Positions 3,134-20,620 of a stretch of DNA of 61,017 nucleotides are shown here, one piece after another (within the stretch, counting starts at the first letter, position 1; each line of letters opens with the position of its first letter). The translations under genes were made by a program, and so were the position numbers. The stretch spans positions 13,679 through 74,695 of the forward strand of contig JALHRL010000021.1 in NCBI GenBank assembly GCA_022841465.1, in the 5' to 3' direction. Source of the DNA: Bacteroidia bacterium. GTDB lineage: Bacteria > Bacteroidota > Bacteroidia > B-17B0 > Aurantibacillaceae. The notes under the pieces are model-generated. The model saw only the letters and a program-made list of their open reading frames with translations. It did not search any database and was not told where the DNA came from.

Positions 3134-6100
3134 ATGAAAAAAATTATTTTTTACTTTTTAATATTAAGCAGCTTGGCTTCTTTAAACGCTCAAGTGAATG
3201 CTTATTCATTTTCTCAATTCTCGGGTACTTACAATGCCATTACTGGTGGTACAGTATTCGGTAATGCAACAACCGACGAGCAGCGCTTTGTTGACGCTAC
3301 TATTCCTTTAGGTGGTACAATTCTTACCGGGCCTGGTTTGCCAATTGGTTTTAATTTTACCTACAATGGAAATGTGTTTGATGTTTTTGCTATAAATGCA
3401 AACGGATGGATTTCTTTAGGTCAGTCCTCTCTTGCACCAAATGCGGTGAACATGACTTCTAGTAGTTATATTAGCCCTATTTCGGCAACATCAGCAGCAC
3501 CACTAGTATTGCAGAATAGAATATGTGCATTAAGCAGAAATTTAGCTGGGCAAACCGGTTCTGAAATCAGAGCACAAACAATAGGCGCAAGTCCTAATCA
3601 AACTTTAGTTGTGCAATACACAAACTATAGAAGAGCTGCAGCGACGGGGGATAACTTAAATTTCCAAATTCAATTAACAGAAACATCTAATAAAGTAAGC
3701 ATAGTTTATGGCACATTAACTACAACTATAACAACAAATCAAACCACTCAAGTTGGATTGAGAGGAACGGCAAATACAGATTTTAATAATAGAATTGTTA
3801 ATGCAACCAATATTTGGGCAACTTCTATTGCTGGTACATTTAATACTTCAACAGCGGCTTTTAATTCAACATTAATACCCGCAAGCGGACAAACTTATGA
3901 ATGGTCACCTCCGCCGCCTTGTTCAGGAACTCCTCCTGTGGCTATTTCTGCAATTTCTTCATCAACAGGTTGTCCTAGTTTTGTTTTTACATTGTCTGCA
4001 ACCGGTTTATCAAATAATTTAGGTATAGTGTATCAGTGGCAACAATCATCAACACCAACCGGACCATGGACAAATATTATTGGCGCAACGAGCCCTAACT
4101 TTACAACTTCTGTTACAGGAACAACTTATTACCAATTTGTAAGCACTTGTACTATTAGTACTTTGTCTTCTACTTCTTCTGTAGTTTCTTATTCAGTAGT
4201 AAATTTGGGGCCTTGTGTGTGTGGCACTTATGGAGCATCATCTGCTCAATTTACGGGTGATGAAGAAATTTTAAATGTTACGTTTGGCACACTTAACAAT
4301 ACCAGTAACTGTACAGTAGTTGCCCCTGGGCCAAACTCTGTTTTAAGTTTGTATAGTAATTATACCGGATTCGTTGCTGCGCCAACTGTTATGCAAGGAC
4401 AAACAGTACCCTTTAGTATTAACGTTGGCACTTGTGGTGGAAATTTTGATAGTGGGGTTTCAATTTATATTGACTACAATCAAAATGGATTATTTACAGA
4501 TGCAGGTGAACAAGTATTTTTAAGTACCGCTTCTATTAATGGGCCATATATTGCTACCGGAAACATTACCATACCTTTAATAGCTAACGTAGGTGTTACC
4601 AGAATGCGTGTTGTAAATGTTGAGACAACTGTTATGTCATCAATATTACCAACCGGTACTTATGGCTATGGTGAAACAGAAGATTATTGTATTGACATTG
4701 TTGCTGCAACTTTGTGTAGCGGAACTCCAAATTCTGGAACAGCAACTATAGTATCTCCAACCATATGTCCTAACACTACAGTGGTTGTAAATGCAACAGG
4801 ATTAACGGTTGCAACAGGATTAACTTACCAGTGGCAACAATCGGCTACACCTACTGGGCCATGGACAAATATTATTGGGGCTACAGCAGCTAGTTATACT
4901 GCAAGTAGCGCTACAACTTTGTATTATCAAATGGTAACAACTTGTACGGTAAGCTCTTTATCTGCAACTACATCGGTTGCTTCTTATTCTGTTGTAAACC
5001 CAGGGCCATGTGTTTGTAATAACTATGGAATTTCTGCGGCTACTCAAACTTTTGATGAAGATATTTGGAACGTAACGTTCGGCTCTTTAAACAACACAAG
5101 TAACTGTACAGTAGTTGCACCTGGTCCAGGATCAACGTTGAATATGTACGGAAATTATGCCGGTTTTGTTGCTGCTCCTACTGTTATGCAAGGACAAACA
5201 GTTCCGTTTAGTGTTGATATTAATACATGCGGTACATGGTGGGGAATGGAATTTGACATTTACATAGATTACAATCAAAATGGTTTATTTACCGATGCAG
5301 GCGAATTAGCTTATAGTACAACAAATGCTATTCAAGGTCCAAACACCGGAAACATTACCATTCCTTTAACTGCAAATGCAGGTAATACACGTATGCGTAT
5401 TGTAGCTGTTGAAGGCACTGTTCCTGGCCCAACAGGAACCTATTTTGCCGGAGAAACAGAAGATTATTGTATTGATATTGTAGCTGCAACTCCTTGTAGT
5501 GGTACACCAAATTCGGGAACCGCTACAATTTCTTCACCTACTACTTGTCCAAATAATTCAGTAGTTGTAAACGGAACAGGATTAACTGTGGCTACAGGAT
5601 TAACTTATCAGTGGCAAGAATCAACTTCTCCAACAGGTCCGTGGTCAAACATCATTGGTGCTACTGCAACTAGTTACACTGCAACCAGTGCAACAACAAT
5701 GTATTATCAATTGGTTACAACATGTACTATAAGTTCATTATCAGCAACTACATCTGTTGTTTCTTATTCAGTTGTAAACCCGGGCCCATGTGTTTGTAAT
5801 AACTATGGATCTTCGGCTGCAACCAGCACTTTTGATTCAGAAATTTTAGGGGTTACTTTCGGTACATTAAACAATGTTAGTAACTGCTCTGTTCCAGCAC
5901 CAGGCCCTGGATCTGCTTTAGGGTTGTACGGAAATTATGCTGGATTTTTAACTGCTCCACTTGTGATGCAAGGCCAGTCAGTTCCATTTAGTGTGGACAT
6001 GAATACTTGTGGTGGTTTTTATCCAAATGCTGTAAAAATATACATTGATTATAATCAAAACGGTTTATTTACTGATTTGGGTGAAGAAGCGTATGTAAGT

Positions 6101-7876
6101 ACTTCTAATACTACACCTTTTTTAATTAGTGGTAACATTACAATTCCTTTAACCGCTTCTGTTGGGGTTACTAGAATGCGTGTAGTGCAGGTAGAAACCA
6201 GCACTCCGTCAAGTATTTTACCTACCGGTGGTTATACATGGGGTGAGACGGAAGATTATTGTATAGACATTCAAGCTGCTTCGCCTTGTTCTGGTTCACC
6301 TAATTCAGGTACTGCCTCTGTTTCTACACCTACAGGTTGTATATCGGATGTGTTTAATTTAAATGCAACCGGCTTAACAGTTGCGAGTGGCTTAACTTTT
6401 CAATGGCAATCTGCTCCATCAGCTTCTGGTCCGTGGACAAACATGACCGGAGGTACAACACCTAACTTTACTGCAACAGCGGCAAATACAACTTTCTATC
6501 AATTAGTATCAACCTGTACTATTTCAAGTTTATCGGCAACGTCATCTATTGTTTCGTTTACGCCTTCAAATTGTTATTTAATGAACACCGGAACAATTAC
6601 TGCTTGTGGCGGCACATTGTATGATAGTGGTGGACCGAATAATAATTACCAAAATAACGAAAATTATACTTTAACAATTGTTCCTGCAACGCCGGGTGCA
6701 AGTGTTCAGTTAACTTTCTCTTCTTTTTTAGTAGAAACTTGTTGTGATTATTTACAAATTTACGATGGTGCAACTACTGCTGCACCTTTAATTGGCCAGT
6801 ATACAGCATTACCTCCAAATATTATGGCAAGTAATGCTGCCGGTGTATTAACCTTAAGATTCTATTCTGATTTATCAGTTGTTCAAACTGGTTTTGCTGC
6901 TGCCATTACCTGTTCTTCTGGATGTTCAGGTCCGCCTGCGGCTCCTGCTGCCAGTGGAGCCTCTATTTGTGCAGGAAATACCGTTGCATTAACTGCAGCT
7001 TCAACGGGAACTGCAATGTGGTATGCAACAGCAACACCTACTAATGCAATTGCTACAGGAAGTTTGTTTACAACGCCTGTGCTTAATACTTCAATTACTT
7101 ATTATGTTAGCGATAGTACCAATTGCGGACAAAGTACTTTAACTGCTGTTGATGTTACTGTAGTGCCTGGTCCTTCTGTTGCTATTAATGCAAGCACCTT
7201 AACTTCTTGCGAAGGCAGTAGTGTTACTTTAACGGGTAGTGGTGCATCAACGTATACTTGGAGTACTTCATCTAACAATGCTGTAATAGTTGTAAACCCA
7301 ACGGTAACCACAAGTTACACATTAAGCGGTTCTCAAAACGGTTGTCCCGATGGAAGTGCAGTAGTAAGTATTTCTGTAAATCCATTGCCAACAGTTTCAA
7401 TGTCTATTGGTGCGGGTACAAATACAATTTGTGTAATGAACGGAAGTTTATCACTTACGGGTAGTCCTTCAGGAGGTATATTTAGTGGCCCAGCAGTAAG
7501 TGGCTCATTAATTAGTATTGCCAATGCAGGAACATTTACACCAATGTATTCATATACAAACAGTGTTACAGGCTGTGTAAATACGGCTACTGCACAATTA
7601 ATAGTTGCAAATTGCACTGGAATTAATTCCCTTTCAACAACATTTAATGGTTTAAGTGTTCGTCCGAATCCAACCAGTGGAGTGTTTGTAATTGAAACCG
7701 GAAACACGCTTGTTAAGCAAATAGAAATTACGGATTTAACCGGAAGAATTGTTTATTCAGGAAACAACAGTTCTGAAACAATTAATGTTGACATAAATAA
7801 TTTAGCAAATGGCTTGTACAACTTAAAAGTAAATACTGAAAATGGTACAAGCATTATTAAAATTATTAAACAGTAA
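3134..7876 (+). CDS. Giant T9SS-secreted protein with GEVED, CUB and Ig-like modules
   Basis: This 1580-residue protein starts with a clear signal peptide (KKIIFYFLILSSLASLNAQ). The order is: a beta-sandwich module of nidogen-like appearance (about 35-255); three tandem units of Ig-like domain plus GEVED domain, each GEVED carrying IDYNQNGLFTD and ending GETEDYCIDI; a lone fourth Ig copy; a CUB domain (about 1146-1260) with its YLQIYDG motif and cysteines; a CHU_C-associated Ig-like domain; a TYTWSTSSNN-type Ig repeat; and a pre-sorting module followed by a type A T9SS sorting domain (about 1500-1580, with VRPNPTSGVFVIE). It should be exported by Sec, carried across the outer membrane by T9SS and attached to the surface or released. 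No catalytic domain is recognisable, so adhesion or matrix binding is inferred. It is the first of three related giants. Confidence 0.85.
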   Translation: MKKIIFYFLILSSLASLNAQVNAYSFSQFSGTYNAITGGTVFGNATTDEQRFVDATIPLGGTILTGPGLPIGFNFTYNGNVFDVFAINANGWISLGQSSLAPNAVNMTSSSYISPISATSAAPLVLQNRICALSRNLAGQTGSEIRAQTIGASPNQTLVVQYTNYRRAAATGDNLNFQIQLTETSNKVSIVYGTLTTTITTNQTTQVGLRGTANTDFNNRIVNATNIWATSIAGTFNTSTAAFNSTLIPASGQTYEWSPPPPCSGTPPVAISAISSSTGCPSFVFTLSATGLSNNLGIVYQWQQSSTPTGPWTNIIGATSPNFTTSVTGTTYYQFVSTCTISTLSSTSSVVSYSVVNLGPCVCGTYGASSAQFTGDEEILNVTFGTLNNTSNCTVVAPGPNSVLSLYSNYTGFVAAPTVMQGQTVPFSINVGTCGGNFDSGVSIYIDYNQNGLFTDAGEQVFLSTASINGPYIATGNITIPLIANVGVTRMRVVNVETTVMSSILPTGTYGYGETEDYCIDIVAATLCSGTPNSGTATIVSPTICPNTTVVVNATGLTVATGLTYQWQQSATPTGPWTNIIGATAASYTASSATTLYYQMVTTCTVSSLSATTSVASYSVVNPGPCVCNNYGISAATQTFDEDIWNVTFGSLNNTSNCTVVAPGPGSTLNMYGNYAGFVAAPTVMQGQTVPFSVDINTCGTWWGMEFDIYIDYNQNGLFTDAGELAYSTTNAIQGPNTGNITIPLTANAGNTRMRIVAVEGTVPGPTGTYFAGETEDYCIDIVAATPCSGTPNSGTATISSPTTCPNNSVVVNGTGLTVATGLTYQWQESTSPTGPWSNIIGATATSYTATSATTMYYQLVTTCTISSLSATTSVVSYSVVNPGPCVCNNYGSSAATSTFDSEILGVTFGTLNNVSNCSVPAPGPGSALGLYGNYAGFLTAPLVMQGQSVPFSVDMNTCGGFYPNAVKIYIDYNQNGLFTDLGEEAYVSTSNTTPFLISGNITIPLTASVGVTRMRVVQVETSTPSSILPTGGYTWGETEDYCIDIQAASPCSGSPNSGTASVSTPTGCISDVFNLNATGLTVASGLTFQWQSAPSASGPWTNMTGGTTPNFTATAANTTFYQLVSTCTISSLSATSSIVSFTPSNCYLMNTGTITACGGTLYDSGGPNNNYQNNENYTLTIVPATPGASVQLTFSSFLVETCCDYLQIYDGATTAAPLIGQYTALPPNIMASNAAGVLTLRFYSDLSVVQTGFAAAITCSSGCSGPPAAPAASGASICAGNTVALTAASTGTAMWYATATPTNAIATGSLFTTPVLNTSITYYVSDSTNCGQSTLTAVDVTVVPGPSVAINASTLTSCEGSSVTLTGSGASTYTWSTSSNNAVIVVNPTVTTSYTLSGSQNGCPDGSAVVSISVNPLPTVSMSIGAGTNTICVMNGSLSLTGSPSGGIFSGPAVSGSLISIANAGTFTPMYSYTNSVTGCVNTATAQLIVANCTGINSLSTTFNGLSVRPNPTSGVFVIETGNTLVKQIEITDLTGRIVYSGNNSSETINVDINNLANGLYNLKVNTENGTSIIKIIKQ
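3920..6286 (+). repeat. Three tandem Ig-GEVED units of 260-265 codons inside the secreted protein gene
   Basis: Units begin at the conserved Cys-Ser-Gly codons at 3920, 4715 and 5495, and a fourth truncated unit (Ig part only) begins at 6287. Unit lengths are 795, 780 and 792 bp, all multiples of three. Each unit contains a QWQxSxxPTGPWxNIIG-type Ig-like domain followed by a GEVED domain. Conservation is high at the protein level, with long identical stretches such as the IDYNQNGLFTD segment. Confidence 0.85.
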
Positions 7877-7892
7877 AATTTAAAAACAATTA

Positions 7893-7930
7893 TTTAAAAG
7901 CCACTCGCTAAATAACGAGTGGCTTTTAAA
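7893..7930 (+). terminator. Rho-independent-type terminator after the first giant gene
   Basis: A perfect 15-bp stem (7893-7907 with 7916-7930) encloses an 8-nt loop. The core is CCACTCG/CGAGTGG and the outer pairs are A-rich/T-rich, so the structure can act in both directions. It lies 17 nt after the stop at 7876 and separates this gene from the next giant gene. Confidence 0.85.
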
Positions 7931-7968
7931 CTTAAAATGCTATAAACTGATAATTAAAAAACAACAAA

Positions 7969-10900
7969 ATGAAAACAAAAATTATTTTATTATTCGTGGT
8001 ATTTAGCTCTTTTTGCTATGCGCAATTACCTATGACGCGCACGGTATTTAGTTCAGCCTTTGTGCCTGTAAATTCTGGATCTGGAGGAGGAACATTATCT
8101 ACAGCATTTGGCGATGATGTATTTCAGGCAAATATACCTATTGGATTTACGTTTAATTACTTTGGTAATGCATATACAACTATTGCGTCTTCTTCAAATG
8201 GCTGGATTGCTTTTTTTGCTCCTACATCTTCGCAAGCAAGTAATTTGAATTTGACTACTGCAACAGGAAGTTTAATTGTAGGTCCTTGGTGGGATGACTT
8301 AACTACTGATTCCGCTGTCTATATTACTCAAGGTGTTCCTGGTTCACAAGTTTTCACATACCAATGGTATGCTAAATCATACTTCACGGGATCTACTCAG
8401 CAATTGCGTTTTCAAGTTAAATTATATGAGGGTACTGATGTAATTGAATTTTTGTATGGAACAAATTTACCAGGTACCTCCAGCGCTAGTGAGTCTGCAT
8501 CTATCGGATTAAAAGCTCCTAATAGTGGGAATGGTAATTACATTGACGCATTTACCGGATCTTCTTTTGTTTCAACAGCTTTTTTAAATTCACCTGCTAA
8601 ATGGCCGGTAAGAAATTATCGATTTACTCCCGGAGTACCTAGCGCAATAAGTGGAGGCACTTATAATGTTGGTATCAGTCAAACTTATCCCAACATTCAA
8701 GAAGCAATTGCAGATGTAAACCATAGAGGGATTACGGGGCCGGTAACTTTAGCATTAACGCAATCTGTTTACGATTTAAACACCTTAAATGGTAATAATT
8801 ATTTTCCTGTATTTTTTGGCCCTGTAAATGGTGCCAGTAGTACTAATATTATTTCTTTGCAGCCCGCGAGTGCAACATCTACTTTATTTTATGATGGGGC
8901 TGTTAGTGGTAATGCAAGTAACGCTGTTTCAACCACTGCTTTCGGAACAACAAATGAGCCTATTATCGGTATGGTTGGTGCATCTTATGTAAACATTTCT
9001 AATTTAGTTTTAACTACAACACTTACTACAGGTTCTAATATTGACAGAGGTGTTGCAATGATAAATCAATCAGCAGCCTTAGGAACACAAAACTGTTCTG
9101 TTTCTAATGTTACGGTAGCGTTAAACAGATCGAATACATCTTCTATTGGAATTGAAACTCGAATTCCTACTACGCCTACAATTAGTACTGGTGCAAATTC
9201 AAACAATAGTTTTATTGATATTCAGATAGCAAACGTTTATAGCGGAATTCTATTATCAGGTAACGCCACTTTTCCTGATTTAAACAATATTATTTCAACT
9301 TCTTCACCGACTTTATTTAACGCAATTGGTTCAAATAATGCAAATGATATTGGGAACGGAACTTCAACTGCTTATGGAATACAAGCATTAAATCAAAGTG
9401 GTGTTAACATTAGCAACAACATTGTACAAAATGTGAGTGTAAATGGTTCTATATTATCTGATGGAATTTTCTTAAATGCTCTTCAAGGGGTTTCATCTGT
9501 TTACAATAACAAAGTTTTGAATATTCGAAATATAAGTGCAACAGCCACCTCGGGCGTTACAGGAATCAGAGCAAATATTGCAACTACCGGAACACATCAA
9601 TTAAGAGTTTACAATAATTTTGTTTCCGGAATAAATTCTAATTATACGGGTGCATCTAGTGCAACACGACAATTAAAAGGTATTTTTGTTCAATCGGCGG
9701 GTGGAGGTGCAACTACTCAAACCATTAATATTGATTTTAATAATGTTTCTATTGATGGAAGTTTATCTCCTAACATTTCTAGTTCCTGTTATGAAATTGG
9801 AACTGGAACAGGTCCTGTAATAAACACAAGAAACAATGTTTTCGCAAATTTCACAGGAACTCAAATTGCTCCTGCAATACACCTGGCTTGGAGGTCAACT
9901 GGGGTTACTTCTATAGGAAATACAGGTTCAAGTTCAAATTATAATGATTTATATATTGCTAATACAAATCAGGGTTTTATTGGACAAGGGAATACTACAA
10001 ATTATGCCACACTAGCCAATTGGCAAACAGCTATGACGCAGGATGCAAATTCTTTAAATTGCGATCCTCAATTTGTAAACCCGTTAAATGATTTACATGT
10101 AACCGGAATTTGTTTAAATGGCGCAGCAGATTTAACCAATTCTCCTTGGATAACAACCGATATTGATAATTCATTGAGATCTGCAACACCCGATATTGGT
10201 GCAGATGAATTTGATTTATGTACAAGTGTAGCAGCAGGGAACATAAGTCCTTCAAGTTATACAGTTTGCCAAGGGCAATCACTTACTTTAAATTCAATTG
10301 GAGCTAGCAGTACAGGTGGGACGCAATACACATGGTTGACATCTACAAGCTTTAATGGCCCTTATAATCCTGTAACAGTAGGTAGTGGATCAAATTCAAC
10401 TTCATATAATACAGGAACACTTTCAGCAGGTACATATTATTTTGTGCATGAAACAACTTGTGTTCCTGCTTCACTTTCAGCACAATCAAATACTGTAACT
10501 GTTACTGTTAATTCATCACCAACAATAAATATTATTGCATCAAATACTTTATTTTGTTCTCCTAGCATAAACCCAATAAATTTAACTGCTAGTGGTGCGA
10601 TTAATTACACTTGGTCTCCTGCCGCTAGTTTATCTTCATCAGTAGGTGCAAATGTGAACTCTACTCCGTCTGTTGCAACTACATACACTGCAATTGGTGA
10701 AGATGCAAATGGTTGTGTGGCGTCAACTACAACAGAAATTCAAGTTAGTTTTTCACCCTTTATTGTTTCTGCAGTTGCAAGTCCGAGTGTATTATGTGCT
10801 ACAGGAAATTCACAGCTTAATGTAATGGGTTACGGCACTGGATTGGTAAACACATATGCGTTTACACCTTCAACCGGATCTGCATTAATACCAATAACCA

Positions 10901-12744
10901 TAACAACAACAGTTGTACCAAGCAGTGTTGATGATACACCAATGGCTGCTCCTGCAAACATTGGATTTACTTTCAATTATAATGGTGTTAACTATACACA
11001 ATTTACAGCATCACCAGATGGTTGGGTAATGTTGGGAAGCACTATTGGCGTGAATCAATTTAGTAATTTAGTTGCAAGTACAACCAATATTCCAAAACTT
11101 TATCCTTATTGGGACGATTTAGCAACGGGTACAACTGGCTACGTTAGAACTTCATTAATAGGAACTGCACCAACGAGAACTTTTGTAATTGAATGGTTTG
11201 TTACCATACCCAGAAATACAACAGGCCCGGCAAACTCTACCTTTCAGGCATTATTACATGAGGCAACCGGAGATGTAGAGTTTAGATATGGAACAATGGG
11301 TTCTTCTTCAATGTCTGCATCATCAGGTTTAACTGGCGGAGCAACAAATTTTAATTGTGTAACTATAACTGGACCTACAAATAGTACCATTACTGCTAAT
11401 AATGCGAATGCAGTTCAACCTGCAAGTGGTGTTTCTTATCTATTTACACCTCCAACACCTACATATTCTTGGTCGCCTGCAACTTTTTTAAGCAGTACAT
11501 CAATTAATAATCCACTTGTAAACAATATTAACACAACCACAAATTATTCTGTTGAATTAACATCAAATGGTTGTAGTAATACTTCTACTGTTGATGTAAC
11601 TATTGCAACACCATCTGTTACCGCAATATCAAGTAACTCTGCCATTTGTTTAGGGAATACAGCCACATTAACAGCAAGTGGCATGAATACATACACATGG
11701 AATCCAGGCCCGTTAAACACGGCTGCAATTACAGTAACACCAAATTCTACCACCGTATTTACAATTGATGCAACTGATGTAAACAACTGTACTGCTTCTG
11801 AAACTATTACATTAATAGTAAATCCTAATCCAACCATTTCAATTACCGGAAATACCACAGTTTGTTTAGGAGGTACTGTTACTTTAACAGCAAATGGGGC
11901 AGACACATATACATGGAATACTAGTTCAAATAATTCCAGCATTTCAGTTTCACCAACTACCTTAACAATTTATACTGTTACCGGAACTTCATCTTTAACC
12001 GGCTGTGAAAATAATTCAACTCACACTTTAAATATTTTATCCTTACCTACTGTTTCCATTGTATCAAGTACAAATACAATTTGTGAAGGTAGTTCGGTAT
12101 TGTTAACCGGTAACGGTGCTAATACTTATTCATGGAGTACAAGTGCAGTAATAAATAGTATTAGTGTTAGTCCAACTGTAAGTACTACTTATACCGTTTA
12201 TGGTGTTGATGCTAATTTATGCGAAAACTCAAGCACTATTGCTATTAATGTTAATGCATTACCAAACGTGAGTTTAACAGCTGCATCAACTACTGCATGT
12301 GTTAACAGTGGTACCATTTTATTAACGGGCACGCCTTCTGGTGGAGTATTCAGTGGGCCAAATGTAACGGGTAACAGTTTAAATCCAACTGCAACGGGTA
12401 CTTTTAGTCCGGTTTATAGTTTCACTAATTCAACCACAGGTTGTTCAAACACTGCCTCAGTTTCAATAGTAGTTTCAAATTGTACCGGAATTGATGCAAT
12501 AGTAAGCAATGCAAGTGCATTAAAAATATTCCCAAATCCAAACAATGGAATGTTTACTATTGAAACGGGCAATGTAAATAATAAATTTATTGAAATTACA
12601 GATTTAACCGGAAGAGTAGTTTATACAACAAACTCTGATTTAGATTCAATTAATATTAATATAAATGAATTTGCAAACGGAGTTTATTCTTTAAAAATTA
12701 CCTCGGGCAGTAATTCAGAAATAATTAAATTAATTAAACAATAA
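7969..12744 (+). CDS. Giant T9SS-secreted protein with parallel beta-helix and Ig-like repeats
   Basis: The 1591-residue product has a signal peptide (KTKIILLFVVFSSFCYAQ). A nidogen-like beta-sandwich (about 35-225) carries GPWWDDL and a final FLYGT segment. Then comes a right-handed parallel beta-helix region (about 230-760) with repeated short Asn/Val/Ser turns, ending in the TPDIGADEFD motif typical of such helices. An Ig-like domain and a first TYTWS-type repeat follow, then a second nidogen-like module (about 980-1160, with YPYWDDL), three more tandem TYTWS-type Ig repeats, the pre-sorting module, and a type A T9SS sorting domain (KIFPNPNNGMFTIETG onward). It should be exported and surface-exposed. 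Beta-helices often bind or cleave polysaccharide, but I see no catalytic residues, so a binding or structural role is inferred. It is probably transcribed separately from the previous gene, since a strong hairpin lies between them. Confidence 0.85.
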   Translation: MKTKIILLFVVFSSFCYAQLPMTRTVFSSAFVPVNSGSGGGTLSTAFGDDVFQANIPIGFTFNYFGNAYTTIASSSNGWIAFFAPTSSQASNLNLTTATGSLIVGPWWDDLTTDSAVYITQGVPGSQVFTYQWYAKSYFTGSTQQLRFQVKLYEGTDVIEFLYGTNLPGTSSASESASIGLKAPNSGNGNYIDAFTGSSFVSTAFLNSPAKWPVRNYRFTPGVPSAISGGTYNVGISQTYPNIQEAIADVNHRGITGPVTLALTQSVYDLNTLNGNNYFPVFFGPVNGASSTNIISLQPASATSTLFYDGAVSGNASNAVSTTAFGTTNEPIIGMVGASYVNISNLVLTTTLTTGSNIDRGVAMINQSAALGTQNCSVSNVTVALNRSNTSSIGIETRIPTTPTISTGANSNNSFIDIQIANVYSGILLSGNATFPDLNNIISTSSPTLFNAIGSNNANDIGNGTSTAYGIQALNQSGVNISNNIVQNVSVNGSILSDGIFLNALQGVSSVYNNKVLNIRNISATATSGVTGIRANIATTGTHQLRVYNNFVSGINSNYTGASSATRQLKGIFVQSAGGGATTQTINIDFNNVSIDGSLSPNISSSCYEIGTGTGPVINTRNNVFANFTGTQIAPAIHLAWRSTGVTSIGNTGSSSNYNDLYIANTNQGFIGQGNTTNYATLANWQTAMTQDANSLNCDPQFVNPLNDLHVTGICLNGAADLTNSPWITTDIDNSLRSATPDIGADEFDLCTSVAAGNISPSSYTVCQGQSLTLNSIGASSTGGTQYTWLTSTSFNGPYNPVTVGSGSNSTSYNTGTLSAGTYYFVHETTCVPASLSAQSNTVTVTVNSSPTINIIASNTLFCSPSINPINLTASGAINYTWSPAASLSSSVGANVNSTPSVATTYTAIGEDANGCVASTTTEIQVSFSPFIVSAVASPSVLCATGNSQLNVMGYGTGLVNTYAFTPSTGSALIPITITTTVVPSSVDDTPMAAPANIGFTFNYNGVNYTQFTASPDGWVMLGSTIGVNQFSNLVASTTNIPKLYPYWDDLATGTTGYVRTSLIGTAPTRTFVIEWFVTIPRNTTGPANSTFQALLHEATGDVEFRYGTMGSSSMSASSGLTGGATNFNCVTITGPTNSTITANNANAVQPASGVSYLFTPPTPTYSWSPATFLSSTSINNPLVNNINTTTNYSVELTSNGCSNTSTVDVTIATPSVTAISSNSAICLGNTATLTASGMNTYTWNPGPLNTAAITVTPNSTTVFTIDATDVNNCTASETITLIVNPNPTISITGNTTVCLGGTVTLTANGADTYTWNTSSNNSSISVSPTTLTIYTVTGTSSLTGCENNSTHTLNILSLPTVSIVSSTNTICEGSSVLLTGNGANTYSWSTSAVINSISVSPTVSTTYTVYGVDANLCENSSTIAINVNALPNVSLTAASTTACVNSGTILLTGTPSGGVFSGPNVTGNSLNPTATGTFSPVYSFTNSTTGCSNTASVSIVVSNCTGIDAIVSNASALKIFPNPNNGMFTIETGNVNNKFIEITDLTGRVVYTTNSDLDSINININEFANGVYSLKITSGSNSEIIKLIKQ

Positions 12745-12764
12745 ATAATTTACTAACTCTAAGT

Positions 12765-12797
12765 AAAAAAACCCTCAACATTTGTTGGGGGTTTTTT
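12765..12797. terminator. Bidirectional terminator between convergent genes
   Basis: An A-run, CCCTCAACA, a 2-nt loop, TGTTGGGGG and a T-run form a hairpin with one T-G wobble. It serves the giant gene ending at 12744 and, read on the other strand, overlaps the last two bases of the convergent gene's stop codon at 12796-12798. Confidence 0.8.
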
Positions 12798-14232
12798 ATT
12801 GTGCCTTTAATAAGTAAAGCGGCATAAACGATTTGTAAATTTGCTTTCCTTCTTTTTCAAAGCTTTCATCAAGATAATTATAAAGTTCGCTGAATAACTT
12901 TGTTTCAAATGGATTTGAAAACAAATAGATTAATTTACTTGGCAACTGTTTTTCATATTCAAAAACATATTCCCCTTTTTCTATAAATCGTTTATACGAT
13001 TGCAATTTAGAAAATAACAAATCTGTATTGCCAATAAAATAATGAATTACTATTTCACTCATTAACAACAATTGCCTTAAGTCTTTTCTAACATTATCGG
13101 GCATTAAAATTGCTTGATTAAAAGTTCGCAAGGCTTTTTTATAATTTTCGGTATACAAATAAAAATAACAAAGTTGAAAAAGGGCTGTTAGTTTTTCATC
13201 GGCGGCCAAATACTCCTCGTTATTTTTTATTTCAGACTCAAAATAATTAAATCTACTTTGGTTTTTATGAATTGTTCCGCTATAAACAATCAAATCCATA
13301 CGTAATGAAACAAAAAGGGTAAACAAATCATTTTTTAAAAGAGCGAGTTTCCATTTTTTGTTTTCTGCTGCCTCCTCCTCTATTTCATTTAATAAGGTTT
13401 CAGCTCTATCAAACTGCTTTAAATGAATATAAGCTATACAAAGATTTCTAACCGACCTTAAATACTCGCCAATATTTCTGTTTTTTATTTCCTCATTTAA
13501 GACATATAACGATTTGGTTCTTTTTGCATAAGCAAGTGCCGTTTCAAAATCACCTTCTTTAATAGCCAAAAAACCATTTATTTTATTAAAAAATATTTTT
13601 GAAGTAGCACTCAATGCACTTTTTTCGTCACGCAATAAATTTTGATATCTTTTGGTAAACTCGTTATCCTGACCAATAAAGTAACTAGTTGAAGATTCTG
13701 CTTTAACCAATGCCCAAATGCTTTCAAATTCTAACTGATTAAAATAAAAATTAGAAAACTGCATCAATAATAATTTATCATTCTCAAAATTTTTGTTCAG
13801 ATAATCAATGTCTGAAAATTTAATAGCTGCTCTTATCTTTAACTCAATAGCTTCTATACGTAGTAAAAAACTGTAATTCTTTTCGGTGTAAATTACCTTG
13901 TTCAAGTGCTTGATGCCATCTCGATAAAAGCCTTTGTGAAATAAAACCTGTGAACGTTTAATTAATCTGTTATCATTTTCGTTATCATAAAGGCTTTCCT
14001 TTAATAGTTGAAATAAAATATCTAAAACTTTGTAATAAAGTTTAGTAGAGTTTCCATCAAATTTTATTATTGAATTTGGTTTTTTTAAACCAACATAGTG
14101 TTCTACTTTACTAAAATCTGTTAAAAACTGATTGTTGTTTTCATCAAATGAAAAGGTCTTTAAATTTAGATGAATATACCTTTTTTCAGTTTTAGTTAAT
14201 GTTTTTACAAGTTGAATGAGGTTTACCGACAT
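12796..14232 (-). CDS. Uncharacterised helical-repeat (TPR-like) protein
   Basis: I do not recognise a named family for this 478-residue protein. It has no signal peptide and no membrane segment, so it is probably cytoplasmic. The N-terminus contains a TLTKTEKRYIHLNLK segment and the rest is almost entirely alpha-helical, with spaced Tyr/Leu/Ala patterns reminiscent of degenerate TPR units (for example the AYIHLKQFDRAETLLNEIEE helix pair near residue 270 and the TENYKKALRTFNQAI pair near 370). This suggests a protein-protein interaction scaffold. It sits on the opposite strand between two giant secreted-protein genes. Its promoter box lies inside a 64-bp palindrome just upstream, which suggests tight or autogenous regulation. 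Function is unknown. Confidence 0.7.
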   Translation of the reverse strand: MSVNLIQLVKTLTKTEKRYIHLNLKTFSFDENNNQFLTDFSKVEHYVGLKKPNSIIKFDGNSTKLYYKVLDILFQLLKESLYDNENDNRLIKRSQVLFHKGFYRDGIKHLNKVIYTEKNYSFLLRIEAIELKIRAAIKFSDIDYLNKNFENDKLLLMQFSNFYFNQLEFESIWALVKAESSTSYFIGQDNEFTKRYQNLLRDEKSALSATSKIFFNKINGFLAIKEGDFETALAYAKRTKSLYVLNEEIKNRNIGEYLRSVRNLCIAYIHLKQFDRAETLLNEIEEEAAENKKWKLALLKNDLFTLFVSLRMDLIVYSGTIHKNQSRFNYFESEIKNNEEYLAADEKLTALFQLCYFYLYTENYKKALRTFNQAILMPDNVRKDLRQLLLMSEIVIHYFIGNTDLLFSKLQSYKRFIEKGEYVFEYEKQLPSKLIYLFSNPFETKLFSELYNYLDESFEKEGKQIYKSFMPLYLLKAQ

Positions 14233-14239
14233 TAGCTTT

Positions 14240-14303
14240 ACAATATTATATCAAATTTAAACAATTCATTTGAAATGAAGTTTAAATAACTATATAATAT
14301 TGT
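14240..14303. promoter_or_regulatory. 64-bp nested palindrome overlapping a promoter (possible operator)
   Basis: The element reads as three nested inverted repeats: ACAATATTATAT (14240-14251) with its exact complement at 14292-14303; ATTTAAAC (14255-14262) with GTTTAAAT (14280-14287); and TTCATTT (14265-14271) with AAATGAA (14273-14279). That is 27 base pairs with only small internal bulges. It contains the -7 box of the minus-strand gene and lies 8 bp from that gene's ATG. It is between divergent genes, so it is not a terminator. Confidence 0.65.
14252..14259 (-). promoter_or_regulatory. -7 promoter box of the TPR-like gene
   Basis: The minus strand reads TAAATTTG, an exact TAnnTTTG match, 19 nt before the ATG at 14232. 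It overlaps the left side of the palindrome at 14240-14303. Confidence 0.5.
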
Positions 14304-14428
14304 TTTTCAATGCTTTATTTTATTTTATGTAGTTTAGAAATGCAATTTTAAAAGGTTTTTGCAAACTAAAACAAACAAATCCTTCAGAACTTTGTTCTAA
14401 TAACAATTAACTATTTAATAAAATAACC

Positions 14429-17400
14429 ATGAAAAAAATCTACAGAATTATTGTACTGTTTGTAATGGCAACATTCATTGCCAATGCACAAGTTACAGTA
14501 AACGGAGGGCCTTCTTTAACGTATACTTCGTTAAATACTGCCTTTGCTGCAATTAATGCAGGCACGCACTTTGGTGCAATTACCATTGATATTACCGGCA
14601 ATACCATTGAAGGTATTACAGGTTATGCACCAACACCCTTATTAGCAAGCGGACAAAGTTTAGCCAATTATAGTTCTATTATTATTCGCCCAACTGTACA
14701 AGCAACGGTTACGGGTTCACCGGCAACGGGTAGAGGTGTAATTGAATTAGACGGTGCTGATAATGTTACCATTGATGGTGATATTATTGCAGGTCCGGTT
14801 CAAAAAGATTTAACTATAGAACACTCCGGTGCAAATACTTTAGCTGCAACTGCAGTTATTCGTTTTATTGGACGTACAACATTAGGCTTAGGCGCAACTA
14901 ATAACACCGTTACTAATTGCGTAATTATTGGAAATACTGTAGGTAATGATGGTGTAAGTGGATCAACCGTTGTGAATAGCTTTGGTATATTTTTTGGAAA
15001 TAATACCGCTGCTTTAACTACAACAGGTTTAGGCGATAATTACGACAATAATGTTATTACAAACAATGAAATTAAAAAAGCATATATTGGAATTTACATT
15101 GGAGGAACAACTGCAAACCCTGCAGATAATAATATTATTTCGGGTAATACAATTGGTTCAAATACTGTTGGGCAAACGGTTTCGTTTGGTGGTATTAATT
15201 TAAGCAGTGTAGCAACATCAACTATTACACAAAACGAAATTTTTAATCTAAAATTAAATACATCTGTAAATAATTACGGTATCCAAATTGCAGGCTCGTC
15301 TAGTTCATCTGTAACAATTACTAGAAACAGAATTCATGGTATTCATAGTTTAAGCACGAGTGGATATGGTGCTTACGGTATAAATTTAACTGCAGGAAAC
15401 GGTCATTTAGTTGTAAATAATGTTATTTATGATTTAATGACTACGAATTATTCTTCAACCAGTACCACATGGAATGCCTTCGGTATAAGAATAACTGGCG
15501 GAATCGGAATTGGCGTATACTACAACAGTGTTAACTTATTTGGACAAATAAATTTAGGAACCTTTGCAAGCGTTGGTTCATCAGCATTTTTAGTTACCTC
15601 TACGGCCATTACAGGTTTAGATGTGAGAAATAATATTTTTAATAATACGCAAACTTCAACAGTAACAACTACCACAACAAAAAAATTCATGGCAGTTTGG
15701 TTTCCTGCAGCTTATAATTTTGCAAGTGTAACACTTGATAATAATGCTTATACTGTAACAAATGATGCTGATCATTTTGTTGGTAAAGTTGGGACTACAA
15801 ATAACCTTAATGAAGGGGTTACCTTGGCTAACTGGCAAGCATTATCACAAGTAAATAACGCATTAAATGATGTTAACTCTGGCCCTGTTTTTAATTTACC
15901 CGCGCCGTTTACTTCAAATACAAACTTAACTTTTCCTGCAAATACAAATTTTGTGGCTGAATCAGGTGCAGTTTTAATTCCTGCATTAGGAACAAATATA
16001 GATTACAATGCAAACGTTCGTCCTTTAACCGGTATTAACCCAAACACTGCCCCTGATATGGGTGCTTATGAGTTTGACGGATTAAATGGATTCCCTACAG
16101 ATGCAGGTATAAACTTATTAGTATCTCCTCCTGCTGGAGGATGTTATTCAGCATCTGAAAATGTAGTAGCACGAATAAAAAATTATGGAACAAATTCAAT
16201 AAGTAATATCCCTGTAGCTGTAATTGTATCCGGACCTATTAATCAAACTTTAACAGGTACATATGCCGGGCCAATTATTGCCGGAGGTACTTTTGATTAC
16301 ACTTTATCACCAACTATTAATATGTTAGGTGTAGGTGTTTATAATTTTAAATCATTTACATCATTAACAGGTGACGGGCAAGCATTAAACGATACTTTAG
16401 CAAATGTTACTAGAACTGTTACTGCAGTTTCACCAATTCCTCAGTTTGTTGACTTTACCGGGTTTACAGGGGCTAATTTACCTACACCATTTCCTTTATG
16501 GTCAGAGGCAACCGGCTCTACAGTTCCAACAGGGACTGCTTCAGCTTGGACAAGTCAAACAAATTTAAATTCTGCAGGCAATATAACCGCAAGATTAAAT
16601 ATGTTTACCACTTCAAGAAATGAATGGATTGTTGGACCAAAGGTTTTAGCTACCGCTAATACTAATTTATCTTTTGATGCAGCTGTTACAAATTTCGGTA
16701 GTACAACTGTAGGAGATATAATGGGTAGTGATGATAAAGTGCGTGTTATGGTTTCAACAGATTGCGGTGTTTCTTATACGCCAATATTTACTGTAAGTGC
16801 TGCAAATAACTTAGGAATTAATTTCACGAATTTTAATGTGAACTTAAGTGCATATGCGGGTCAAGAAATTATTGTAGCATTTTTAGCTCAAGACGGACCA
16901 GTTGATGATATAGAAGATTACGATTTTCACCTAGATAATATAAATTTATTTAATGCTTCTCCAACTGACGCAGGTGTATCTTCTATTGTTACGCCGAGTA
17001 CCGGTTGTTTTACAAATAACGAACAAGTAGTAGTTACCGTTAATAATTTTGGTACTGCCGCTATTTCTAATTTCCCGGTTACGGCTTGGGTAAGTGGTCC
17101 TTTAGCACAAACTGTTACTGCAACTTATACTGCAACCTTAGCACCATCAGCTACCGCAAACTTTACTTTGGGTACAATTAACTTAGCAGCTGCAGGTAGT
17201 TATACTATTAAAGGTTTTACCTCTTTAGCCGGTGATTTAAATGTAAATAATGATACTAATACTGTTGTTAAAACAACTCTACCATTAGGCACATTACCTC
17301 AATTTGTAAGCTTCACCGGATTTACCGGATCTAATTTACCTACCTTCTTCCCTGATTGGAGAGAAGGACAAGGTGCCGCAGTTGCTAATGGTACCATATC

Positions 17401-20400
17401 AAACTGGACAAGCCAAACCAATTTAAACTTAGCAGGAAACGTAAACGCACGAGTGTTTTTATCGGCAACTGCAGCAAATGAGTGGATTGTTGGTCCGAAA
17501 ATTTTGGCAACAGCTAACACCAATATTTCGTTTGATGCAGCAGTAACATTTAATATAGCAGCTCCATTTACTTCAACAGTTATGGGAAGTGATGACAAGG
17601 TTAGAGTTATGGTTTCAACTGATTGTGGAATTTCTTATACTCCAATTTTCACTTTAAATGCTTCTAATAACTTAGGAATTGCGTTTACTAACTTTAATGT
17701 AAACTTAGGCTCATATGCTGGTCAAGAAATTATTGTTGCCTTCTTAGCTCAAGATGGACCGGTTGATGATCCACAATCATATTATTTCCATTTAGATAAT
17801 ATTAACTTATTTAATACTTCAGCAACAGACGCAGGCGTTAATGCAATTGTTACACCAAGCACAGGATGTTTTGGTGCAAACGAACCTGTTGTTGTTACAG
17901 TTAAAAACTTTGGTAATGCAGCCATTTCTAACTTCCCTGTTACAGCATGGGTAAGTGGGGCTGTTAGTCAAACATTAACTGCAACTTACACTGCAAACTT
18001 AGCGCCTTTGGCAACAGATAATTTTACTTTGGGGACCTTAAACATGTTAACCGCCGGTACATACTCCATTAAAGGCTTTACTTCTTTAACAGGTGATAGT
18101 AACATTTTTAATGATACTACTTTAACAACTAAAAATTCTGTGTTTTTAGCTTCTTTACCTCAAAGTGTTGGCTTTACAGGGTTTACTGGTGCAAACTTAA
18201 ACACGCTATTCCCGAATTGGAATGAAGGTAATGGATTCCCTGCACCTACTGCTACAACTTCTAACTGGACCAGTCAAAACGGTTTAAACGGAGCAACAAA
18301 TGTTAATGCAAGAATTTTCCTTTCTGCTACCTCTAACAGTGTTTGGATAGTTAGCCCAAGAGTATCTGCAACTGCTAACTCTAACATTTCATTTGATGCA
18401 GCGGTAACAGGTAATGTTACTGCTCCATTTACTTCTTCTGTTATGGGAAGTGATGATAAAGTAAGGGTAATGGTTTCTACGGATTGTGGTAACTCGTTTG
18501 CACCAATATTTACCATTAGTGCTTCAAATAACTTAGGTACTAATTTTACAAATTTCAATGTAAACTTAGGCGCTTATGCAGGACAAGATATTATGGTGGC
18601 CATATTAGCACAAGACGGACCGGTAGATGATTTAGAATCATACTACTTCCATGTTGATAACATCAATTTATACAATGCCGCTGCCGCAGATGGTGGTGTA
18701 AGTGCGATTTTATCACCAACAGTTAACGCTTGTTTATCTGCAACTGAACAAATTGTAGTTACGGTTAATAACTATGGATTTAATCCTTTAACTAATTTCC
18801 CTGTAACTGCTGTAATAAGTGGCCCAGTTAATTCAACTGTTACATCAAACTACACTGGTACATTAGCACCAAATACTTCAGCAACCTTTACAATTGGTTT
18901 TGCTAATATGAACGTTTCAGGCACATATACTGTTAACGCATTTACCGGAGTGGCAGGTGATCCTAATGCTTTTAATGATGCTACGGTTTTATTTACTACG
19001 CAAACTCCTAACTTTGGAATTTCAGGTGTTAATTTAATTTGTGGTTCTGGTTCTACTACCTTAAATGTTACAGGTAGTGCATCAACGTATACTTGGAGCA
19101 ATAGTTCTAACAGTTCATCTATTATTGTTTCACCTAGTGTAACTACAACCTATTCAGCAGCTGCTACTGGTGGAACAAATAACTGTCAGGTTTCAGCATT
19201 CTTTACAGTAACAGTAACTAATCCAACAATTAGTGCACAAGGCGCTGCAGTATGTGGAACAACAGCAGTTGGTACATTAAGTGCGAATGCCTTTGGTCCG
19301 GTTAATTGGTATGCATCTCCAACCTCAACAGTTGTTTTAGCTACCGGAAATACCTTTACAGCAACAGCTCCGGTAAGTACAACTTATTATGCTGAAGCTA
19401 TGACTACTGCTAATGGAAGTTTACAAACTACATTTGCAGGTGGAAATGGTTGTGGTGGTGGTGCAATGTTTGATATAACTCCTACTAACGGTGCCGTTAA
19501 TATTGATAGCTTAGATATTAATACAGGTGTTGCAGCTAACTCAACATTAAGTGTTATTATTTTTTATAAAACAGGTACTTACTTAGGGAATGAAACAAAC
19601 GCAGCAGCCTGGACTGCTTGGGATACGATTATTGCAACAAGTGCCGGTGCTAATCAGCCTACCAGAGTTGCATTTAACAATGCGTTAAACATACCTAACA
19701 GTTTGCTAACAGGTTTATACGTTAACTATAATGCTCAGTACACAAACGGAACTTTAGCATATAACAACCTAGACATTACCGTTCAAACAGGCGCCGGATT
19801 GTGTTCACAATTTGGTGGTGTTAATGCAGGAAGAATGTTTAATGGAAATATTTACTATACTAAACCAGGTTGTACTAGTCCTAAAGTACCGGTTACCTTA
19901 ACGGTTAATCCTACTCCAACCTTAGCAATTAATGCGTCTACTACAACAATTTGTAGTGGTAACTCAGTTACATTAACTGCAAGTGGAGTTGATACCTATA
20001 CTTGGAGCACTTCTTCAAACAGTACAACTATAGTTCAGACACCAAGTGTAACAACATCGTATACAGTTAATGGTACATCTTTAGCATGTAGTACAACTGA
20101 AACAGCTACAGTAACAATTAACGTTAATGCTACTCCTTCAGTAAGTTTAACCGCAGGAGCAAGTACTATTTGCGCAATGAATGGTAGTATTTCATTAACA
20201 GGTTCACCAGCAGGTGGTGTGTATAGTGGTGCTTCTGTTACAGGAAGTTTATTAAGTATTGCTAATCCCGGAACATTTGTACCTGTGTATTCATTCACCA
20301 ACAGTACTACGGGATGTTCAAACTCAGCCTCTACAACTGTAATTGTTGCAAATTGTACTTCTTTAGATAAGAATGGTGCAATTACTTCAAGTACAATTAG

Positions 20401-20620
20401 TGTATTCCCTAATCCTAACAATGGCTCTTTTGTAATTGAAACTTCAAATGAATTAGTAAAAGAAATAACCATTGTAGATATTACCGGAAGAACAGTTTAT
20501 GTTGAAAAAACACAAGCTGCAACCATTCAATTAAATATTGAAAATTTAGATAACGGATTGTATCAAGTTACTGTAAAAACAGAGCGAGGCTCTGATATCA
20601 TAAAAGTAATTAAACAATAG
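14429..20620 (+). CDS. Giant T9SS-secreted protein with beta-helix and tandem CARDB/adhesin-like units
   Basis: This is the largest protein in the window (2063 aa). After a signal peptide (KKIYRIIVLFVMATFIANAQ) comes a right-handed parallel beta-helix (about 25-545) that closes with PDMGAYEFDG. Three tandem units follow, each a CARDB-like Ig fold (TDAGV..IVTPSTGCF) plus a choice-of-anchor-J/cleaved-adhesin type beta-sandwich (FTGFTGANLP ... EWIVGPK ... MGSDDKVRVMVSTDCG ... FHLDNINL). Then come a lone fourth CARDB, a TYTWS-type Ig repeat, a CHU_C-associated Ig-like domain, a Gly-rich beta-domain near 1670-1800, another TYTWS repeat, the pre-sorting module and a type A T9SS sorting domain (VFPNPNNGSFVIE). 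A surface adhesin or carbohydrate-binding role is inferred. No protease or glycosidase residues are evident. Confidence 0.85.
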   Translation: MKKIYRIIVLFVMATFIANAQVTVNGGPSLTYTSLNTAFAAINAGTHFGAITIDITGNTIEGITGYAPTPLLASGQSLANYSSIIIRPTVQATVTGSPATGRGVIELDGADNVTIDGDIIAGPVQKDLTIEHSGANTLAATAVIRFIGRTTLGLGATNNTVTNCVIIGNTVGNDGVSGSTVVNSFGIFFGNNTAALTTTGLGDNYDNNVITNNEIKKAYIGIYIGGTTANPADNNIISGNTIGSNTVGQTVSFGGINLSSVATSTITQNEIFNLKLNTSVNNYGIQIAGSSSSSVTITRNRIHGIHSLSTSGYGAYGINLTAGNGHLVVNNVIYDLMTTNYSSTSTTWNAFGIRITGGIGIGVYYNSVNLFGQINLGTFASVGSSAFLVTSTAITGLDVRNNIFNNTQTSTVTTTTTKKFMAVWFPAAYNFASVTLDNNAYTVTNDADHFVGKVGTTNNLNEGVTLANWQALSQVNNALNDVNSGPVFNLPAPFTSNTNLTFPANTNFVAESGAVLIPALGTNIDYNANVRPLTGINPNTAPDMGAYEFDGLNGFPTDAGINLLVSPPAGGCYSASENVVARIKNYGTNSISNIPVAVIVSGPINQTLTGTYAGPIIAGGTFDYTLSPTINMLGVGVYNFKSFTSLTGDGQALNDTLANVTRTVTAVSPIPQFVDFTGFTGANLPTPFPLWSEATGSTVPTGTASAWTSQTNLNSAGNITARLNMFTTSRNEWIVGPKVLATANTNLSFDAAVTNFGSTTVGDIMGSDDKVRVMVSTDCGVSYTPIFTVSAANNLGINFTNFNVNLSAYAGQEIIVAFLAQDGPVDDIEDYDFHLDNINLFNASPTDAGVSSIVTPSTGCFTNNEQVVVTVNNFGTAAISNFPVTAWVSGPLAQTVTATYTATLAPSATANFTLGTINLAAAGSYTIKGFTSLAGDLNVNNDTNTVVKTTLPLGTLPQFVSFTGFTGSNLPTFFPDWREGQGAAVANGTISNWTSQTNLNLAGNVNARVFLSATAANEWIVGPKILATANTNISFDAAVTFNIAAPFTSTVMGSDDKVRVMVSTDCGISYTPIFTLNASNNLGIAFTNFNVNLGSYAGQEIIVAFLAQDGPVDDPQSYYFHLDNINLFNTSATDAGVNAIVTPSTGCFGANEPVVVTVKNFGNAAISNFPVTAWVSGAVSQTLTATYTANLAPLATDNFTLGTLNMLTAGTYSIKGFTSLTGDSNIFNDTTLTTKNSVFLASLPQSVGFTGFTGANLNTLFPNWNEGNGFPAPTATTSNWTSQNGLNGATNVNARIFLSATSNSVWIVSPRVSATANSNISFDAAVTGNVTAPFTSSVMGSDDKVRVMVSTDCGNSFAPIFTISASNNLGTNFTNFNVNLGAYAGQDIMVAILAQDGPVDDLESYYFHVDNINLYNAAAADGGVSAILSPTVNACLSATEQIVVTVNNYGFNPLTNFPVTAVISGPVNSTVTSNYTGTLAPNTSATFTIGFANMNVSGTYTVNAFTGVAGDPNAFNDATVLFTTQTPNFGISGVNLICGSGSTTLNVTGSASTYTWSNSSNSSSIIVSPSVTTTYSAAATGGTNNCQVSAFFTVTVTNPTISAQGAAVCGTTAVGTLSANAFGPVNWYASPTSTVVLATGNTFTATAPVSTTYYAEAMTTANGSLQTTFAGGNGCGGGAMFDITPTNGAVNIDSLDINTGVAANSTLSVIIFYKTGTYLGNETNAAAWTAWDTIIATSAGANQPTRVAFNNALNIPNSLLTGLYVNYNAQYTNGTLAYNNLDITVQTGAGLCSQFGGVNAGRMFNGNIYYTKPGCTSPKVPVTLTVNPTPTLAINASTTTICSGNSVTLTASGVDTYTWSTSSNSTTIVQTPSVTTSYTVNGTSLACSTTETATVTINVNATPSVSLTAGASTICAMNGSISLTGSPAGGVYSGASVTGSLLSIANPGTFVPVYSFTNSTTGCSNSASTTVIVANCTSLDKNGAITSSTISVFPNPNNGSFVIETSNELVKEITIVDITGRTVYVEKTQAATIQLNIENLDNGLYQVTVKTERGSDIIKVIKQ
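16097..18685 (+). repeat. Three tandem CARDB plus anchor-J-like units of 287-289 codons
   Basis: Units start at the Thr-Asp-Ala-Gly codons at 16097, 16964 and 17825, with a lone fourth CARDB copy from 18686. Unit lengths are 867, 861 and 861 bp. The second and third units are especially alike, sharing runs such as SNFPVTAWVSG and QEIIVAFLAQDGPVDD, which suggests recent duplication or gene conversion. Confidence 0.85.

Follow-up and report, generated by a model that had tools for sequence, protein, structure and literature searches.

A conserved divergent promoter region with a most likely incidental 64-bp palindrome between a TPR-protein gene and a giant T9SS gene in a Bacteroidia bacterium

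A nested palindrome of 64 bp lies in the 196-bp intergenic region between the gene for a 478-aa helical-repeat protein and the divergent gene for a 2063-aa T9SS protein, and the question raised by this locus is whether so large a dyad is a regulatory element in its own right or an incidental feature of the sequence on which it is superimposed. The explanation we favor, with a probability of roughly 0.68, is that a putative local regulator has here an ordinary divergent promoter region, conserved in relatives, which happens to carry an incidental near-palindrome. The relevant features within the window (i.e. the whole 61,017-nt stretch of DNA that was analysed) are as follows:

12796..14232, minus strand: 478-aa TPR-type helical-repeat protein, a distant full-length homologue of the BT2802 family
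14240..14251: left outer arm of the palindrome, 12 bp, 100% match; the 478-aa gene would have its transcription start and leader here
14252..14259, minus strand: -7 box TAAATTTG of the 478-aa gene, of the TAnnTTTG type (PMC9723704)
14255..14287: middle 8-bp arms (14255-14262 and 14280-14287), 100% match
14265..14279: core 15-bp palindrome TTCATTTGAAATGAA, with 7-bp arms at 14265-14271 and 14273-14279
14269..14280, minus strand: conserved upstream promoter block, CTTCATTTCAAA in the window and TTACATTTCAAA-like in relatives
14292..14303: right outer arm, 12 bp, pairing with 14240-14251 at 100%
14387..14394, plus strand: GAACTTTG, inferred -7 box of the giant secreted-protein gene; its first base departs from TAnnTTTG
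14429..20620, plus strand: 2063-aa secreted protein with a T9SS sorting domain and choice-of-anchor J domains

Genes for three giant proteins (1580, 1591 and 2063 aa), each with a T9SS sorting domain, follow one another at 3134-20620, and the 478-aa gene lies in the opposite direction between the second and the third.

The palindrome itself is real. A pair-by-pair check of 14240-14303 found 27 of 27 Watson-Crick pairs in its 12-, 8- and 7-bp arms, so that the size, arms and pair count given in the initial annotation stand, while the spacing to the ATG has to be corrected from 8 to 7 bases (14233-14239). In the DNA fold the stem is interrupted by an interior loop (3 and 4 bases) and a bulge of 2 bases. 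The estimate of how readily such a structure arises by chance varies with the null model. Against local shuffles it was exceptional: the DNA fold of an 84-nt stretch (-14.6 kcal/mol, z -5.04) and the RNA fold of the local 84-90 nt (-18.8 kcal/mol, z -4.56) were each matched in stability by none of 200 shuffles, and the DNA fold of the 90 bp adjoining the start codon (z -5.11) by none of 300. An equally good hairpin (arms up to 30) appeared in 1 of 60 dinucleotide shuffles of the whole 196-bp region, and a first-order model of the same region predicted hairpins of this score at 116 per Mb, or ∼0.02 per 196 bp. Models built on all intergenic DNA of the window predicted 14 (first order) or 10 (second order) per Mb. 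The palindrome is the best hairpin of the 61-kb window (score 17 vs 15) and ranks top among 24 scored divergent regions of its own genome (itself and 23 controls). Over 334,695 bases from its genome, nine hairpins reach its score, the palindrome included; four of the other eight are followed by T-rich runs and look terminator-like by eye. The palindrome is locally unusual, yet a few of such strength would be expected per genome, and it exceeds chance only modestly in such A+T-rich DNA.

Conservation was assessed in orthologous regions. A single-protein scan found no named relatives; an alignment scan returned 15 loci, nine of them at 40–56% identity and all nine from MAGs. Among 39 other genomes of the genus, 9 carry an orthologue of the gene (10 of 40 once its own is counted), as does one additional record, L068. 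Ten intergenic regions were compared: the window, G033, G012, G021, G008, G006, G007, G019, G061 and L068. G026 was left out: only ∼125 bases of its contig precede the gene, and these did not resemble the other regions. Across the nine orthologous regions 9, 11, 11, 11, 12, 12, 13, 14 and 14 of the 27 pairs are found, compared with 8.9–11.2 expected from shuffled arms, and 12–65% of shuffles reach the observed values. In each of the nine the best hairpin is reached by more than 3 of 60 shuffles, and DNA-fold z values for the 90 bp beside the start codon range from -2.24 to 0.75, as against -5.11 in the window. The left outer arm is poorly conserved, with 1 of 12 columns invariant; the closest orthologue, in G033, has a similar TATAATATATTGT at the position of the right outer arm without a matching left arm. 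The middle arms pair in the window only (2–4 of 8 pairs in relatives), their left arm overlapping the conserved promoter, and relatives keep 2–6 of the 7 core pairs, the TTTGAAA centre of the core being part of the conserved block.

In the alignment of all ten regions, structure pairs fill 59.0% of cells vs 41.0–55.8% in slid versions, and 19 of 500 shuffles attain the covariation score of the palindrome structure; both the window's own row and the conserved TTTGAAA centre contribute to this slight excess. The large dyad put forward initially is not conserved, pairing being at chance level in 9/9 orthologous regions, and absence from all close relatives, the first half of what the initial annotation had named as counting against its own reading, is what these nine regions display. 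Sequence comparison thus places the palindrome in this species only among the genomes compared, although with the nearest orthologues at 52–56% identity one common to closer species would escape detection. Different inverted repeats with other centres occur in the same zone in G019 and G061, where they are reached by 7 and 8 of 300 shuffles, respectively. Short GTAAA/TTTAC-type inverted repeats, which the window does not have, adjoin the conserved block in G061 and G008 (loci L100 and L052); that of G061 reads AATGTAAA-gtat-TTTACATT.

Judged from the same alignment, what is conserved in relatives is the promoter and not the palindrome. Within columns 14252-14281, 11 of 30 are invariant in the ten genomes vs 0.007 expected, a value reached by none of 5000 shuffles under a control that ignores the relatedness of the genomes. 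The right half (14282-14303), where 3 columns of 22 are invariant (0/5000), likewise exceeds the shuffles, and so does 14304-14330 on mean identity, with a smaller excess in both than in the block. The minus-strand consensus is TTACATTTCAAA-N7-TTTAnnTTTG; the window likewise has its block 7 bases from TTTAnnTTTG, with CTTC where most relatives show TTAC or a near form. As the initial annotation had noticed, a perfect TAnnTTTG box, TAAATTTG, lies inside the palindrome (minus strand, 14259-14252, its first base 27 bases upstream of the ATG at 14232), and it lies there because the conserved promoter does. On the other side of the region, the GAACTTTG-type box is found 35–137 bases before the ATG of the giant gene, as GAACTTTG in 8 of the 10 regions and as the one-base variants CAACTTTG in G012 and GACCTTTG in L068. 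The divergent pair of 478-aa gene and giant secreted-protein gene is present in all ten readable regions, the window included, the giant gene being cut by the end of the contig or stretch in G033, G008 and L068.

The upstream element of Flavobacterium promoters is TTG. Here, by difference, TTAC or CTTC is followed by a conserved TTTCAAA, and the TAnnTTTG box is perfect at -27 in only 4 of 10 regions (window, G033, G012 and G021) and imperfect at that place in the other six (G008, G006, G007, G019, L068 and G061). Allowing up to 3 mismatches, the promoter pattern has 9 matches in the window vs 2.52 expected (0/100 shuffles). In the whole of the window's own genome it has 24 matches vs 19 for the reversed control, and therefore defines no large regulon. 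The GAACTTTGT-like boxes are not enriched in the window (4 vs 2.78 expected). We suggest that the intergenic region would act as the shared control region of the conserved divergent gene pair, and that the 478-aa gene would have, as the functional unit under the palindrome, a promoter of the Bacteroidota type made up of the TAnnTTTG-like box and, 7 bases upstream, the TTACATTTCAAA-like block spanning about -33 to -22. The palindrome is then most likely incidental; the mirror half that completes its 64 bp could have arisen by drift or by templated repair of an A+T-rich imperfect repeat.

Positions of transcription starts were taken from the box rule of F. psychrophilum, in which the box occupies -12 to -5 (PMC9723704). 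On that basis the 478-aa gene would start near 14247 and the giant gene near 14399; the distance from TAAATTTG to the ATG would then leave a leader of ∼15 nt, in keeping with a Bacteroidota sigma-A promoter, the median leader in F. psychrophilum being 24 bp according to the same paper. An mRNA starting near 14247 would hold only part of the left outer arm, and since the giant-gene box (14387-14394) lies beyond the element, the giant-gene mRNA would be without the hairpin. By inference the hairpin is untranscribed from either gene, and any role would therefore be exerted at the DNA level; we agree on this with the initial annotation, which had argued that a start after the box cuts the hairpin, with the proviso that both starts are derived from box position. 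An RNA hairpin in the leader acting as an attenuator or riboregulator, for which the RNA fold (-18.8 kcal/mol, z -4.56) might speak, is accordingly highly improbable: its right arm would be untranscribed, the palindrome is not conserved in relatives, and no Rfam gathering score was reached in 12600-14700, where five weaker matches were obtained, all far from that threshold and none overlapping the element. The same interval contains no terminator-like site (a G+C-containing stem with a T-run at a gene end), and the element precedes two genes that diverge from it, which bears out the earlier view that it is not an intrinsic terminator.

A role at the DNA level could take the form of a cruciform or topology switch whose extrusion under supercoiling would block the -7 box. 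Its 27 pairs, A+T richness and DNA fold (-14.6 kcal/mol over 84 nt) would suit such a switch; the stem is, however, broken by the loop and bulge noted above and the palindrome is not kept in relatives, and we regard this reading as very unlikely. Derivation from a MITE or other mobile element, another of the initial suggestions, is barely credible. The 12-bp terminal inverted repeats are what a MITE would have, but at E 0.001 the sequence is single-copy in 3.77 Mb apart from its own mirror match, which sets aside a MITE with several copies and target-site duplications; weaker matches in its own genome (E up to 1) are short, the best being 31 bases at 84%, and the left half aligns with orthologous promoters with no insertion gap in the window. 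Weak matches (E ≤1) of a 78-mer were obtained in 57 of 60 relatives' genomes; among the matches listed, only that of G033, with 80% identity over 45 bases, is located at the orthologous promoter.

The remaining alternative is a species-specific operator: a dimeric or oligomeric regulator, conceivably the 478-aa protein or one of its partners, would bind the dyad to control one of the divergent genes or both. Both the -7 box and the conserved block fall within the palindrome, which has conserved promoter elements on its two sides, the 478-aa gene has distant relatives in a family that takes its name from ribose utilisation, other inverted repeats occupy the same zone in G019 and G061, and hairpins reached by no more than 3 of 60 shuffles are found in 5 of 25 intergenic regions of the wider family vs 1 of 23 controls. 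Set against this, the arms are not conserved in 9/9 orthologous regions, where a dyad operator would be expected to keep its dyad, and no DNA-binding domain, including HTH, was matched in the 478-aa protein with Pfam or NCBIfam, the first ∼80 residues of its predicted structure having pLDDT <50 (mean of the whole model 71.8). We consider such an operator possible but on balance unlikely. A broader proposal, that BT2802-related TPR proteins form a large Bacteroidia class of local regulators encoded divergently from their often secreted targets and that here the conserved promoter has turned into a 64-bp dyad operator by which the 478-aa protein controls its own gene and the giant T9SS partner, is decidedly doubtful.

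On the explanation by an ordinary promoter region with an incidental palindrome, the 478-aa protein would probably regulate the divergent giant T9SS gene locally, and perhaps its own gene as well, via sites in the region. Its TPR matches are barely above the Pfam cut-offs. Residues 4-465 of 478 align with positions 6-474 of the 502 of NCBIfam profile NF058569 (E 7e-12), i.e. homology is full-length, and the score of 45.1 bits, against a curated cut-off of 550, places it outside the family; by sequence it would be related to the BT2802 ribose-utilisation family at a distance, without belonging to it. It shares with that family the TPR-type repeats and a gene often placed divergently, and differs in having a giant T9SS protein rather than a ribose locus as partner. 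We take BT2802 to be RusR of B. thetaiotaomicron. RusR regulates ribose scavenging in that species (PMC12596196), and BT2802 is named in PMC13304314. A search of the open literature with few terms found no regulators of this TPR type other than RusR. Foldseek returned generic TPR matches only for the predicted model; these include Rap (RRNPP-type) regulators at E ∼3e-3 and weaker, but the similarity is generic (TM ∼0.4), eukaryotic TPR proteins rank higher, and no HTH was matched. A defence system was also considered and rejected, with no PADLOC matches for the 478-aa and 2063-aa proteins.

The wider family was surveyed in 119 genomes of the class, taken to be Bacteroidia, 68 of which had matches at E ≤1e-10. 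The window's own 478-aa gene (3e-10 in a similar search) misses this threshold, and the neighbour count therefore concerns other, better-matching copies. Thirty loci (L104–L133) represent the best copies from 30 genomes, some of one genus. Divergence from the upstream ORF was found at 25 of the 28 scorable loci (L120 and L129 were left unscored), and 15 of the 25 divergent neighbours have a signal-peptide-like N-terminus under a home-made rule. In a control sample from the window's genome, 66 of 245 genes were in divergent pairs (gap <500) and 23 of the 66 had a signal-like N-terminus; this control comes from another genome than the family loci, and the gap rule was applied to the control alone. 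The comparison is suggestive of divergent placement being commoner in the family than in the background, and such placement fits a local regulator without proving one. By itself the palindrome is of little importance. The TPR protein is distantly related to a widespread family whose named model links to ribose utilisation, and the conserved pair of giant T9SS and TPR genes with its footprinted intergenic region may offer a testable entry to the control of single large secreted proteins in Bacteroidota.

Other neighbourhoods of the family were inspected by eye from N-termini. Ribokinase-like genes adjoin L104 and L105, and 2-isopropylmalate-synthase-like genes lie beside L015, L019, L069 and L130. 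At a further locus (L134:6070-10920; G000:C2), adjacent genes for 514- and 264-aa proteins, seemingly of the same TPR family, are divergent from the gene of an 810-aa protein with a signal-like N-terminus.
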